Origin: Spirochaetaceae bacterium
Lineage (GTDB): Bacteria > Spirochaetota > Spirochaetia > SZUA-6 > Bin103
Reading direction: 5' to 3'
Length of the DNA stretch: 64,000 bases
Assembly (NCBI GenBank): GCA_028820215.1
Contig: JAPPKD010000258.1
Coordinates: forward strand, 1-64,000
Shown here: positions 4,703-63,012 of the stretch, one piece after another
Layout: each line of letters opens with the position of its first letter
Position numbering within the stretch: the first letter of the stretch is position 1
Position numbers and translations under genes: made by a program
The notes under the pieces: model-generated
The model's database searches: none
What the model was told of the DNA's origin: nothing
The model's input: the letters and a program-made list of their open reading frames with translations, nothing else

Positions 4703-5611
4703 ATGGCGACGGACATCGAGACCGAGCTGCAGAACCTGAAGACCGACCCGGCGATGCTCAGGCACTTCGAGGAGCTGGACGAGCACGGCTACACCATCCT
4801 CGAAGACACCCTCACCCAGCGCCAGGTCGACGAGGCGATCCGGGAGATCGCCGTCACCTACCGGGAAGTGAGTGCCACCGAGCACGAGCCCGGCACCCTG
4901 CGCACCCACAACCTGACCGCACGCGCCGAGGTGTTCCGGGAGATGCTGCAGGTGCCGCGCGTGATGGCCTGCCTGGCCTACCTGCTGGGCGACGACTACA
5001 TCCTGTGCGACTCCGGAGCGCGGTCGCCGATGCCGGGCATGAAGGCGCAGGGGCTGCACCGCGACGGCGACGACTTCATGCCCAACCCGCCCTACAAGGT
5101 GCACGCGGTGGTGCCCACGTTCGCGCAGTCCCTGTTCGCGCTGTCCGAGTTCACGGCGGAGAGCGGCGCGACCCGCTTCGTGCCCGGGTCGCACGTCAGG
5201 GACCTCGATTCCGCGAAGATCCCGCCCGAGGACGAGCGCCAGTTCATCTGCAAACCGGGGGCCTGCCTGGTGTACGACGGCCGTCTCATGCACGGCGGCG
5301 CGCCCAACGACACGGACCAGATCCGCTACGCGGTGCTGAACTTTCACTGCCGGGCTCGCATGAAGCCGTTCTGCGACCACACCCGCTCGATCCCGAACGA
5401 CGTCGTGGAAGCGGCTTCGCCCACGCTGCGCCGGCTCTGGGGCTTCGAGTGCCAGTCCGCGTGGGAGGAGTCGCCGCGCAACTACCAGATCATCGAGGTC
5501 ACCGGCGCCAAGCCGCGCTTCGAGTACCGCGGCATCGGCGCGGTCAAGGAACGGGAAGAACGGCAGAAGCGCGAGCGGGAGCGGGAACAGGCGGAGGCGG
5601 CGACTCGATGA
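4703..5611 (+). CDS. Phytanoyl-CoA dioxygenase (PhyH) family protein
   Basis: Fe(II)/2-oxoglutarate-dependent oxygenase, 302 aa. The iron facial triad is visible as H119-x-D121 (GLHRDGDD) and distal H197 (RLMHGGAPN), with a conserved Ser/Gly-Pro-Gly-Ser-His segment (RFVPGSHVRD) between them. Family members hydroxylate small metabolites; the substrate here is not evident. The C terminus is a highly charged tail (KEREERQKREREREQ), probably a solvent-exposed helix. Its TGA overlaps the ATG of the downstream HD-domain gene (ATGA at 5608-5611), so the two are translationally coupled and may act in one pathway. Confidence 0.88.
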   Translation: MATDIETELQNLKTDPAMLRHFEELDEHGYTILEDTLTQRQVDEAIREIAVTYREVSATEHEPGTLRTHNLTARAEVFREMLQVPRVMACLAYLLGDDYILCDSGARSPMPGMKAQGLHRDGDDFMPNPPYKVHAVVPTFAQSLFALSEFTAESGATRFVPGSHVRDLDSAKIPPEDERQFICKPGACLVYDGRLMHGGAPNDTDQIRYAVLNFHCRARMKPFCDHTRSIPNDVVEAASPTLRRLWGFECQSAWEESPRNYQIIEVTGAKPRFEYRGIGAVKEREERQKREREREQAEAATR

Positions 5612-57140: not shown

Positions 57141-57240
57141 CCGCAGCGGCCGATGTCGACGCCTCGAAGCCTCGGGCGTTGCCGGTCGGCACCGCATGGA
57201 CCTGGCCATCGCTCAAAGAGTGCGCATTGATCGACGACGC

Positions 57241-57301
57241 TTGTTGCAGGAGGAAGCATCCTCGTCTATTCTTACTGTACAGAATTGCAGGAGTCCAAGA
57301 C
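57241..57301 (+). promoter_or_regulatory. Putative promoter/operator of the MazE/MazF module
   Basis: TTGTTG (57241) and TATTCT (57267) or TTACTG are possible promoter boxes with imperfect spacing. The perfect palindrome CTGTACAG (57275-57282) and the smaller repeat GAGGA-N4-TCCTC (57250-57263) lie nearby. A GGAG ribosome-binding site precedes the ATG. AbrB-fold antitoxins usually bind such palindromes. Confidence 0.4.
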
Positions 57302-57526
57302 ATGGAGTTTGCGAAGCTCACGAGCCGCGGCCAGACCACCATCCCGAAAGCCATCCGTGAAGCGGCGTCGTTGCGGCGGGGAGACGTGATCGCCTTCGAG
57401 ATTGCTGGCGACCATGTGGTACTGCGCAAGGTGCACTCCGAACGAGATGATTACCTACGCGGCCTTGCGGACACGATGGACGAGTGGGCAACCGCGGAGG
57501 ACGAGGACGCTTGGCGTGACCTTTGA
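57302..57526 (+). CDS. mazE: MazE/AbrB-family antitoxin
   Basis: 74 aa. A SpoVT/AbrB swapped-hairpin domain fills the N terminus: FAKLTSRGQTTIPKAIREAA, LRRGDVIAFEIAGDHVVLRK. The acidic C-terminal tail (DEWATAEDEDAWRDL) would bind and inhibit the toxin. It overlaps the toxin start by 11 bases, which is typical for coupled antitoxin-toxin pairs. Confidence 0.92.
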   Translation: MEFAKLTSRGQTTIPKAIREAASLRRGDVIAFEIAGDHVVLRKVHSERDDYLRGLADTMDEWATAEDEDAWRDL

Positions 57527-57857
57527 CCCGTTGGATGTCGTGGTGGTGCCGTTCCCATTCAGCGACCGGCGGGCGACGAAGCGCAGGCCGGCACTCGTCG
57601 TCTCCTCGACGGCATTCAACCGGGCTCACGCGCACGCGATCTTGACGATGATCACGTCGACCACCCGCGACCGGTGGCAGAGCGACGTGCCGATAGATGA
57701 CTGGCGGAAGGCCGGTCTCACCACAGCATGTCGCGTGCGCTTCAAGGTGTTCACGCTCGACAACTTCCGTGTGTTGCGCCGGCTAGGCAGGCTGTCGGCG
57801 CGCGACGGCGAGGCCGTCGTGCGCTCGCTCGCACGTCATCTCACGATGGGACTCTGA
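57516..57857 (+). CDS. mazF: MazF/PemK-family endoribonuclease toxin
   Basis: 113 aa. The MazF/PemK signature is visible as VVVVPFPFSDRRATKRRPAL, which carries the basic active-site loop, then VVSSTAF and LTTACRVRFKVFTLDN. It cleaves RNA at short sequence motifs. GTG start at 57516 lies within the antitoxin gene. It is convergent with the permease gene, 16 bases away. The MazF cleavage site cannot be predicted here. Confidence 0.92.
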   Translation: MTFDPLDVVVVPFPFSDRRATKRRPALVVSSTAFNRAHAHAILTMITSTTRDRWQSDVPIDDWRKAGLTTACRVRFKVFTLDNFRVLRRLGRLSARDGEAVVRSLARHLTMGL

Positions 57858-61042: not shown

Positions 61043-62623
61043 TCAGACCTCCCCCTGTACTGACGCGCTGTACTCGTTCTCGATCCGCTCCTGTTCGGCT
61101 TCGTCGATGAACCCGAGATTGGTCAGGTGACGCAGCGCCGCCAGAAAGCCTGCCTGCAGGCGCTTCGCCACCTGACCGACTCCTTCCATGGTGTCGAGCT
61201 GGGTCGTCACCATGGATACCGTGCGCTGGACCAGATCAGACGGCATGAGCAACATCGCCGCGAAGGCGTTCGCTCGCCGCTCGATGTCACGCGGCGCCCA
61301 AGGTCCGCTGGCCATTGCCAGCCGGCTCCCCGCCTCGCGGTCGAACAGCAAGTGACAGAGCTCGTGTGCCAGGGTAAATCGCCTGCCCGACGGGTAGGCA
61401 TTGGCGTCATTACGCGTGTTGAAGAGTATTCCAGCCCGATGCTGCGGCCCGACGATGGAGACTCCTCGAATCCTGTCGTCCGACAAGCGTAACAGCCCGC
61501 GCGTAACGCCCAGGTGATCGACCATCCCTTCGATGTCGACAGACTCACCCTTCGCGAATCTCATGTCGAACCGCTCGTGAAGCTCGTCCGCGAGCTCATA
61601 GCCCTGAGACCAGGAAGTCGAACCGGAGTCCTCGACCGGGGCTGATCGGCATATCGCGCGCGTCCCTTCCGATTCGCCGTCCAGCGAGTAAAGGTCGACC
61701 ATCTTCCGAGCGATCTGTTCCACGTCTTCCTTGCTGACGTCGGGTGCGAGCGACCCAAACATCAGAGCCGCATGACAGGAACCGACGACGACAAGCGGCG
61801 ACTCGCGCGGGACATCCAACATCGCCTGGCGCTGCGGTTCGCCGATACTCGACAGGGCTCGGCTTGCCCGATGCCATCCGGATCGGATGGCGTGCTCGTC
61901 CGCTCCGAGCCCGGCCAGCCACATGAGCCGTCGCCCGGACTTGGCTGCTGACTTCAGCGCTCGAAGCGCCTTGCACAGCGCCCTGACTCGATCGGCATCC
62001 GGCGTCAACGACAAGAGATATTCGCTTGCGCCTGACAGGACCTCGTGGAGTGGATCGGCGACTTGGTGCGGCAGCAACGTGCTGGAGCCTCTCTCCGACT
62101 CCATAAAGCTGAAGTGCTGGGGCGTCCCGTCGCTACGGGCTGGCCCCCAGGACACTTCGACCGAGTCTCGCAAGCGCCTCAGAATGACATCGGGGAACAA
62201 GCCACCTTCGTTCGCCGACCGAATCGCGTGCCTGGCCCACCAGTTTTGCCACTCTGTTTCCCACTGTGAGGCCTTCGCGTCATCGTCTTCCACGGCAGGC
62301 GGCGGAAACCGAGTTGCGCGGAGCGATGCCCAAGCGGTATCACCGTCGTTCCGTACGGGCAGTCGCTCCTCGTGGAGCAGGGGATTCCAGTTACGGGCGA
62401 ACCACTCGATGAGCGGGAGGAGATACCAATGCACTGAATCGATGCGCTCGCCTTCCTCGACATGAGCGCACAGGTTCCTGCCTCCGACCCAGATCTGAAA
62501 GCATCCCCAGGAGAGGCTGATCTCCCGATTGGCGCCGTACCCTTGGTCGGGATCGGGAGAAAACGCCATTCGCAAGGCAAACACGCTGGTGTCGCCGGCC
62601 AGTCTCTCCCATCGAGTAGCCAT
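61043..62623 (-). CDS. ImmA/IrrE-type metallopeptidase with a large N-terminal domain
   Basis: 526 aa. The C-terminal half carries the peptidase motif H-E-x-x-H at 420-424 (LAHELCHLLFD) and the third ligand Glu 448 (DIERRANAFAAMLLMP), matching ImmA/IrrE peptidases, which cleave repressors such as ImmR or DdrO. The first 300 residues are an unusual domain (SWGCFQIWVGGRNLCAHVEE; SVHWYLLPLIEWFARNWNPL) that I cannot name. No HTH is seen. The 98-aa Cys protein gene precedes it by 10 bases, forming a two-gene unit inserted between a binding protein and its permeases. Confidence 0.85.
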   Translation of the reverse strand: MATRWERLAGDTSVFALRMAFSPDPDQGYGANREISLSWGCFQIWVGGRNLCAHVEEGERIDSVHWYLLPLIEWFARNWNPLLHEERLPVRNDGDTAWASLRATRFPPPAVEDDDAKASQWETEWQNWWARHAIRSANEGGLFPDVILRRLRDSVEVSWGPARSDGTPQHFSFMESERGSSTLLPHQVADPLHEVLSGASEYLLSLTPDADRVRALCKALRALKSAAKSGRRLMWLAGLGADEHAIRSGWHRASRALSSIGEPQRQAMLDVPRESPLVVVGSCHAALMFGSLAPDVSKEDVEQIARKMVDLYSLDGESEGTRAICRSAPVEDSGSTSWSQGYELADELHERFDMRFAKGESVDIEGMVDHLGVTRGLLRLSDDRIRGVSIVGPQHRAGILFNTRNDANAYPSGRRFTLAHELCHLLFDREAGSRLAMASGPWAPRDIERRANAFAAMLLMPSDLVQRTVSMVTTQLDTMEGVGQVAKRLQAGFLAALRHLTNLGFIDEAEQERIENEYSASVQGEV

Positions 62624-62633
62624 AGTTACCGGA

Positions 62634-62930
62634 TCAATCCCAGTGCCTCCGCACGTCGCGCCGCCGCAGACATCCTTCCCTTACCCATTTGCGTCGCAGT
62701 GTCTCCGGAACCTCGACCCAGCCGACCGGGTACCCATGCCACACACCGGCTCGATGCTCCTGTGCACAATACGCTCTCCCTTCATGCACCGCATAACGCT
62801 TGCCGTTCGCCGGCTCGCTTCGGCTGAGCAACCGAGCAGCCGTCTCCTGGTCGATCTCCTTGGGACAGAGCGTTCCCTGGCGACCGCGCTGCCACGGTTC
62901 CCTGTGCTTCGGACTGCCACAGTACCGCAT
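62634..62930 (-). CDS. Small Cys/His-rich protein, partner of the IrrE-type peptidase
   Basis: 98 aa. Four Cys (4, 22, 55, 87) and several His (9, 49, 59, 65) could bind a metal, although no tight C-x2-C pair is present. Distinctive segments are MRYCGSPKHREPWQRG, GTLCPKEID and VWHGYPVGWVEVPE, and the C terminus is Arg-rich (LRRRDVRRHWD), which suggests nucleic-acid binding. I do not recognise the family. It immediately precedes the metallopeptidase, in the same direction, and could be its substrate, regulator or cofactor. Confidence 0.7.
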   Translation of the reverse strand: MRYCGSPKHREPWQRGRQGTLCPKEIDQETAARLLSRSEPANGKRYAVHEGRAYCAQEHRAGVWHGYPVGWVEVPETLRRKWVREGCLRRRDVRRHWD

Positions 62931-62945
62931 CTGCTTGAAGATGAC

Positions 62946-62976
62946 GGCGAGGCTCCATAGTGAAATGAGCCTCGCC
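62946..62976 (-). terminator. 9-bp hairpin downstream of the binding-protein gene
   Basis: GGCGAGGCT (62946-62954) and AGCCTCGCC (62968-62976) pair perfectly around a 13-base loop. On the minus strand it lies just beyond the binding-protein stop at 63013 and before the 98-aa gene. There is no U-run after it, so it is a weak terminator or an mRNA-stabilising hairpin that limits read-through into the peptidase module. Confidence 0.5.
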
Positions 62977-63002
62977 GTTCGATCGCCGTTCGATCGCCGT
63001 TC
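62974..63002. repeat. 11-bp tandem repeat, 2.6 copies
   Basis: The unit GCCGTTCGATC occurs at 62974-62984 and 62985-62995, with seven bases of a third copy to 63002. It abuts the hairpin and the binding-protein stop. It may mark an insertion or slippage site at the edge of the peptidase module. Confidence 0.7.
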
Positions 63003-63012
63003 CGGTGTGCGG

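Follow-up and report, generated by a model that had tools for sequence, protein, structure and literature searches.

A pair of adjacent genes from a Spirochaetaceae bacterium (GenBank assembly GCA_028820215.1, contig JAPPKD010000258.1) is likely to be a chromosomal toxin–antitoxin module derived from the toxin/immunity cassette of a contact-dependent inhibition (CDI) system, in which the antidote is fused to an ImmA/IrrE peptidase that probably frees the toxin under stress. We analyzed positions 1 to 64,000 of the contig, referred to here as the window. A preliminary description had placed a self-contained two-gene module at 61043..62930, comprising a peptidase with a novel N-terminal domain and a Cys/His-rich protein; both open reading frames lie exactly there, on the minus strand and 10 nt apart. 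From the sequences, the homology of the two halves to CdiA C-terminal toxin domains (CdiA-CT) and to CdiI immunity proteins, their close pairing, the retention of the peptidase motif and the co-divergence of toxin and immunity domain are shown. The first gene would thus encode a free-standing CdiA-CT-type toxin, and the second a CdiI-like immunity protein (about residues 1-165) joined via a linker to an ImmA/IrrE zinc peptidase. The features, in window coordinates, are as follows.

62634..62930, minus strand: putative toxin gene, 98 aa, a stand-alone CdiA-CT-type domain (open reading frame with ATG start, profile homology)
62904-62909, minus strand: K8-H9 of the 98-aa protein
62733-62741, minus strand: W64-H65-G66 of the 98-aa protein
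62624..62633, minus strand: 10-nt gap from the stop of the small gene to the start of the peptidase gene (reading frame coordinates)
61043..62623, minus strand: putative antitoxin gene, 526 aa, with immunity domain, linker and M78 peptidase (open reading frame with ATG start, Pfam PF06114, 1599 relatives)
62129..62623, minus strand: CdiI-type immunity domain, residues 1-165, boundary approximate (hhalign and reciprocal hidden Markov model (HMM) search)
62150-62443, minus strand: CdiI-aligned part of the immunity domain, residues 61-158 (consensus around RHALRxAxEGGLFPDVxxRRxxDxxExSW)
61607..62128, minus strand: linker region, residues 166-339, with the lowest conservation of the protein (24% mean pairwise identity in 52 loci)
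61094..61606, minus strand: M78 (ImmA/IrrE) peptidase domain, residues about 340-510 (Pfam; PADLOC capP and RmrA; PDB IrrE and CapP chains)
61352..61366, minus strand: HELCH zinc/catalytic motif, residues 420-424 (translation)
61280-61282, minus strand: presumed third ligand E448 (translation)

Pfam found nothing above its cut-off in the 98-aa protein. An 83-row profile of the small proteins (A3) was searched against 398 Pseudomonadota genomes and matched 16 of them at E ≤ 0.01. Sorted by inspection, eleven lay beside an M78 protein (two of these, G007 and G236, duplicate loci of the existing set), one (G176, locus L130) with a 220-aa frame that carries the immunity domain and in which no peptidase was found, two (G401 and G445) were CDI loci, and two (G384 and G484) looked like chance frames. 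In G445 and G401, the small domain forms the extreme C-terminus of 4110- and 2452-aa frames (HMM E = 1.5e-15 and 3.2e-15), which carry a TPS secretion domain and haemagglutinin repeats and are therefore CdiA-type. Comparison of A3 with the G445 CdiA C-terminus by hhalign gave a probability of 99.2% (E = 3e-19). The small protein is thus a homologue of the toxin domain at the end of CdiA, and the earlier suggestion that it may be a substrate or sensor is not supported. It stands alone, without TPS domain or haemagglutinin repeats, so the pair is not itself a CDI system. G401 also holds an orphan toxin/immunity copy (L127). In this toxin-first search, every match judged real adjoined an immunity-type domain. 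Among 346 genomes of the phylum of G005, a toxin search gave four matches, three of them M78-paired (G005, G790, G875) and one (G917) looking like chance.

Tyr3, His9, Pro23 and His65 are invariant across 22 diverse homologues of the small domain. The label Cys/His-rich fits only in part: Cys22 never varies within the 83-row alignment but is missing from the CdiA relatives. A zinc-ribbon reading of the Cys/His residues was rejected, as Cys22 is kept in neither the CdiA nor the NsnC relatives. The toxin is probably an enzyme that uses the conserved His9 and His65. In PADLOC, the 98-aa protein matches the last 80 residues of NsnC, which we take to be a component of the anti-phage system Menshen. 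The NsnC model PDLC03898 is matched by 73 of the 83 small proteins at E ≤ 0.01, and A3 aligns to the C-terminus of an NsnC-model match (L089:1033-1782) with 93.9% (E = 1.7e-7) in profile comparison and with E = 0.063 as a plain HMM. The C-terminal homology to the 98-aa toxin and CdiA-CT suggests that NsnC is a toxic effector.

Directly behind each CdiA gene, in the immunity position, lies a gene of 153 or 172 aa (P0246 and P0247). A 23-row profile of peptidase residues 1-200 (A5) matched these two genes at E = 1.5e-4 and 1.7e-5. We compared A5 with a CdiI alignment (A6: P0246, 17 of its 37 database relatives, P0247 and L127), and hhalign gave 92.6% (E = 4.6e-7) over residues 61-158; 60 column-shuffled controls reached at most 0.8%, and the reversed alignment and the toxin alignment 0.1% each. 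In the reciprocal direction, the CdiI profile was run against 16,800 open reading frames of 80 loci, where family peptidases took ranks 1-31 and 39 of the first 40 places; with P0247 and L127 removed from the profile, they still took ranks 1-16. The N-terminal domain is thus homologous to the gene directly behind a CdiA that carries this toxin domain. It had been described as novel and unassigned over about 300 residues. No Pfam family names it, and the unnamed part extends over ~400 residues. Because the small protein is CdiA-CT-like and the N-terminal domain resembles post-CdiA immunity genes, toxin plus antitoxin is the better reading of the pair. A family member of 658 aa (P0077) has a ~130-residue insertion in the linker ahead of the peptidase part.

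The sole Pfam family above cut-off in the 526-aa protein is Peptidase_M78 (PF06114; residues 410-500, E = 3.6e-10, 40.2 bits against a gathering cut-off of 22). The HExxH motif and the Glu ligand of the preliminary description were located at residues 420-424 and E448. In a 73-row family alignment, H420, H424 and E448 are invariant and E421 is kept in at least 90% of rows. Of 175 family members (120 from the database, 55 from the loci), 171 have HExxH, and peptidase activity is therefore generally selected. NCBIfam and PHROGs matched the peptidase part only; in PADLOC, the closest models to that part were capP (E = 1.5e-17) and RmrA, the latter of which we take to be a component of RosmerTA. 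The RmrA and spr1629 models match the M78 part, and for this part a PDB profile search returned IrrE and CapP chains. Among the 19 Pfam families matched by any of the 73 members at E ≤ 0.1, none was of the Xre/HTH_3 type; the few weak helix-turn-helix (HTH) matches belonged to other families, and DUF5984 matched four of the 73 members weakly (best E = 0.023). LacI- and CytR-type PDB chains aligned to the C-terminal part of the peptidase profile. A further M78 peptidase, on an Azospirillum ramasamyi plasmid (L090:4477-6669), has a first half that could not be aligned to the 526-aa family and lies directly behind a 262-aa protein without Pfam match; it is perhaps the same design with another toxin/immunity pair.

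Database searches gave 1599 relatives of the 526-aa protein at E ≤ 1e-3 among 7996 candidates scored, and 117 of the best 120 span at least 96% of the query; for the 98-aa protein, 142 of 146 candidates matched. Loci were collected by a single profile scan of genome contigs with a 32-row peptidase alignment (A1), which yielded 80 of 81 loci. Family peptidases, defined by more than 100 bits, occur in 76 of them, and the distant M78 proteins of L077-L080 were not counted. Seventy of the 76 loci have the small domain directly upstream: 69 on the same strand within 400 bp, and L065, which was added, inside a long open frame. The neighbourhood check proposed with the preliminary description thus came out in favour of a conserved, self-contained two-gene module with an ImmA/IrrE peptidase. 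In seven of the 70 (L029, L033, L036, L039, L055, L068, L070), the small gene shows damage or is incomplete. Of the six other loci, three run off a contig end (L014, L059, L066), one lacks the small gene and has its peptidase broken into two frames (L007), and one is a fragment (L075). The sixth is L005, in which the toxin gene (about 4900-5256) seems interrupted, with its middle matching on the opposite strand and its last residues on the usual strand.

Where starts could be assigned, intergenic distances ranged from overlaps of a few nt up to ~30 nt, and with these starts many relatives show an overlap of 1-14 nt between the genes. Each of eight genomes tested has a single copy of the small domain, beside the peptidase as judged by coordinates. 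We found no third conserved gene: the other common neighbour clusters comprised at most nine loci each, scattered and mostly more than 1 kb away. As in type II toxin–antitoxin systems, the two genes are adjacent and co-directional, and the pair is conserved in distant lineages.

Mirror-tree comparison over 52 loci gave a correlation of 0.67 between toxin and immunity domain (0 of 1000 permutations as high) and 0.48 between toxin and peptidase. The partial correlation of toxin and immunity domain given the peptidase was 0.55, and that of toxin and peptidase given the immunity domain was 0.15. The divergence of the toxin follows the immunity domain rather than the peptidase. We also classed 93 loci by domain models; 70 were unflagged and had all three domains. 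A damaged or missing toxin beside an intact immunity domain was found in nine loci (L005, L007, L029, L033, L036, L055, L068, L137 and L139, the last with an in-frame stop) and the reverse in none of the 93, counts that are readings of script flags in which assembly errors can mimic breaks; the first scan, moreover, started from the peptidase, with toxin-only loci beyond its reach. L134 was dropped as a repeat of L033; in L039, L070 and L075 both or more parts are damaged; L014, L059 and L066 lie at contig ends; the only flag on L125 and L126 was the absence of a peptidase; the toxin flags in L129-L131 and L143 reflect a divergent toxin only; and the immunity gene of L127 fell below the threshold used, matching at E = 0.02. 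In L130, toxin and immunity domain are both retained, and no peptidase was found.

COG2856 peptidases occur in toxin–antitoxin operons and, when fused to Xre domains, with RelE/PIN toxins (PMC2701414). Rhs toxin/immunity pairs work as type II toxin–antitoxin systems, and their immunity proteins are degraded under stress, which was proposed to free the toxin (PMC7043789). Zinc activates IrrE, and DdrO is cleaved by IrrE when zinc rises under oxidative stress (PMC7907104). On the basis of these precedents, we propose an antidote with its own protease switch. In unstressed cells, the immunity domain would bind and block the co-expressed toxin, as homology, synteny and co-divergence suggest. Under stress, such as the rise in free zinc or oxidants that is known for IrrE, the peptidase would become active; its most likely target would be the immunity-domain/linker region, in the same molecule or a sister one, and cleavage there would free the toxin to arrest growth. 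A stress or defence role of the module is plausible.

Several observations weigh against this interpretation. The peptidase substrate is proposed only by analogy. HExxH is missing from four of the 175 family members and from the M78 domain of a distant actinobacterial relative (L144:1833-3266), so peptidase activity is not indispensable everywhere; the module may work without it, or something else may act as the switch. The immunity homology covers ~95 residues at 16% identity, and with the stricter 18-row CdiI profile that lacks P0247 and L127 the individual E-values are 0.022 at best, so that the case then rests on ranking. The tie between toxin domain and immunity type comes from no more than two intact CdiA loci and a single orphan copy, and in two Duffyella plasmid records, found with P0246, the CdiI homologue has no neighbour recognisable as a toxin. 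A5 and A6 match no solved structure, including the immunity chain of 5t87. That entry, a CdiA toxin, is the only plausible solved-structure relative of the small domain, at a borderline E = 0.29 with A3 and 0.012 as the best match with a wider profile (A7), and the CdiA C-terminus alone does not match it. This toxin comes from Cupriavidus taiwanensis, and a study of Rickettsia has modelled its stand-alone relatives, which lie next to antidote genes (PMC9111745); we treat the likeness as suggestive only.

By eye, the C-terminal part of the L144 toxin looks like the CdiA form. A survey for CdiI in 247 genomes of the order of G445 returned G445 itself only. On a Duffyella gerundensis plasmid (L147:3932-7973), the CdiI homologue is broken into two frames; no toxin could be recognised just upstream of it, and a gene annotated as a VENN pre-toxin is ~3.2 kb away. 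This is perhaps an orphan immunity array.

The same toxin–antitoxin pair might be triggered by phage infection and act in abortive-infection defence, which is compatible with the proposed mechanism and which we hold to be possible, if somewhat doubtful. It is favoured by the toxin domain shared with PADLOC NsnC (73 of 83 members; hhalign 93.9%), whose link to Menshen we presume. Genes within 3 kb of the loci matched 157 PADLOC models, compared with 79 for genes beyond 6 kb, counted as model matches and not as proteins. Gene calling was crude, and each set held 72 genes, drawn from 92 near genes and from a total of 72 far ones. This contrast is weak, however, because the models are redundant and both sets contain defence genes. 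Moreover, no relative was found in phage records or in viral contigs, the latter by a pattern scan that finds close relatives only, and plasmid records gave two partial matches. Phage or plasmid carriage of the module was dropped as an explanation on these results. A search of plasmids with a relative of the 98-aa protein as query found nothing.

The main rival at the peptidase step is that the enzyme disarms the toxin by cleavage, the immunity domain being no more than a docking site and M78 destroying or maturing the small protein. This carries the earlier substrate idea over to a toxin. The retention of HExxH in 171 of 175 members and the pairing in 70 of 76 loci fit this reading as well. 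However, two CDI loci pair the same toxin domain with a 153- or 172-aa immunity gene that has no peptidase, and L130 combines toxin and immunity domain without one, so cleavage is probably not needed for neutralisation. In addition, it is the immunity domain, not the peptidase, with which the toxin co-varies. We consider toxin cleavage unlikely.

It is still less probable that the second gene is an orphan CDI immunity gene that guards against the CdiA toxins of neighbours, with the toxin gene as a silent passenger cassette. Orphan immunity genes are common at CDI loci (PMC9086364), and the Duffyella plasmids carry a CdiI homologue without adjacent toxin. However, all three domains are unflagged in 70 of 93 loci, the conserved His residues of the toxin are kept and the two genes often overlap, and a passenger would leave the conserved peptidase unexplained. 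Regulation in the manner of ImmA/ImmR, IrrE/DdrO or CapP/CapH, in which the small protein would be a repressor cleaved to induce a stress or mobile-element response, is very improbable: the M78 domain does lie closest to capP and RmrA in PADLOC and to IrrE and CapP chains in the PDB, but the weak matches of the 83 small proteins (E ≤ 0.1) include no DNA-binding Pfam family, no third conserved gene to regulate was found and the small protein is a CdiA-CT homologue, for which reasons it was rejected as a DNA-binding repressor.

In a 56-row peptidase tree, the phyla are mixed, the 12 groups showing 17 label changes against a minimum of 11. The window peptidase shares a four-row set with sequences from two Gammaproteobacteria and from one member of Spirochaetota (SH-aLRT 99), a placement that suggests transfer; the rows include metagenome bins, so this is no proof. 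Empty-site comparison did not show an insertion in the window, since the operon of the best relative (G003, permease 60-61%) is arranged differently. G003, G151 and G152 (the genome of locus L003 and its family) are Spirochaetia-type, with 32-52 matches each to the window ABC permease (best 61%). By Pfam, the flanks of the pair hold two ABC permeases, one plus-strand gene without assignment and one minus-strand frame without match, which we interpret as a solute-binding protein. One further feature immediately precedes the toxin start.

62944..62978, no strand assigned: perfect 12-bp inverted repeat with an 11-nt spacer (0 of 500 shuffles as long)

Over window positions 62944-63004, between the upstream gene and the toxin start, this repeat overlaps three 11-bp tandem repeats. 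It may serve the module as an operator or belong to the end of the upstream gene. Relatives do not commonly share such a repeat; it reached p ≤ 0.05 in three of 59 loci, about chance level, and a conserved upstream operator was therefore dropped. Elsewhere in the window, a MazF/PemK-type toxin gene (57196-57857, plus strand; PF02452, E = 5.2e-15) follows an AbrB-like reading frame, by our own reading of the translation, which would make a second toxin–antitoxin pair ~3 kb from the 98-aa/526-aa pair.

As a putative toxin–antitoxin module the pair is of a known kind; its antitoxin architecture appears new. With CdiA-CT/CdiI pairs it shares a homologous toxin domain (E = 3e-19), a homologous immunity domain (E = 4.6e-7) and the order toxin to immunity, whereas here the toxin has 98 aa and no TPS/haemagglutinin delivery part and the immunity domain is fused to an M78 peptidase. 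With NsnC it shares the C-terminal domain; the rest of NsnC is absent here, and the sole NsnC locus seen (L089) had no M78 family match. Menshen presumably consists of NsnA, NsnB and NsnC. Judged by Pfam on flanking genes only, NsnA and NsnB do not accompany the domain here, and only the C-terminal domain of NsnC is shared.

COG2856-Xre modules (RmrA and spr1629-type antitoxins) likewise have an M78 peptidase in an antitoxin-like protein paired with a small toxin (PMC2701414). In our family, a CdiI-type domain takes the place of the Xre HTH, none of which was found fused to or beside the peptidase, as it is in COG2856-Xre modules and RosmerTA, and the toxin is CdiA-CT-type, not RelE/PIN. IrrE/DdrO, ImmA/ImmR and CapP/CapH use the same peptidase family, possibly with the same zinc/redox activation (PMC7907104); here, however, the partner is not a repressor, and the presumed inhibitor lies in the peptidase's own chain. 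Salmonella Rhs pairs are also polymorphic-toxin pairs acting inside the producer, with an antitoxin proteolysed under stress, but the protease there is cellular (Lon and another), whereas here the peptidase is part of the antitoxin (PMC7043789). Among the titles and abstract openings listed from open-licence PubMed Central, subscription papers lying outside it, we found no description of a CdiI-type domain fused to an ImmA/IrrE peptidase, and the first 300,000 characters of a polymorphic-toxin survey (PMC3482391) contain no mention of DUF955, COG2856, IrrE or ImmA.

We tentatively suggest, as a broader idea that may well fail, that such "self-disarming antidotes" are widespread: a CDI-type immunity domain with its own stress-activated ImmA/IrrE protease that cuts the antidote off the toxin, the same toxin domain serving in three arenas, namely intercellular warfare by CdiA, phage defence by NsnC (through its presumed place in Menshen) and intracellular toxin–antitoxin control. 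A single toxin domain connects contact-dependent inhibition with the ImmA/IrrE stress peptidases and with the defence protein NsnC. A prediction is that NsnC, if our assignment of it is right, would be the toxic effector of Menshen. A review calls the role of a Menshen component unknown (PMC10952713). The analysis suggests what a large N-terminal domain without a name (1599 matches) and a small unnamed toxin family may do, and it poses a directly testable mechanism in which an antitoxin would carry a built-in zinc-dependent protease switch.

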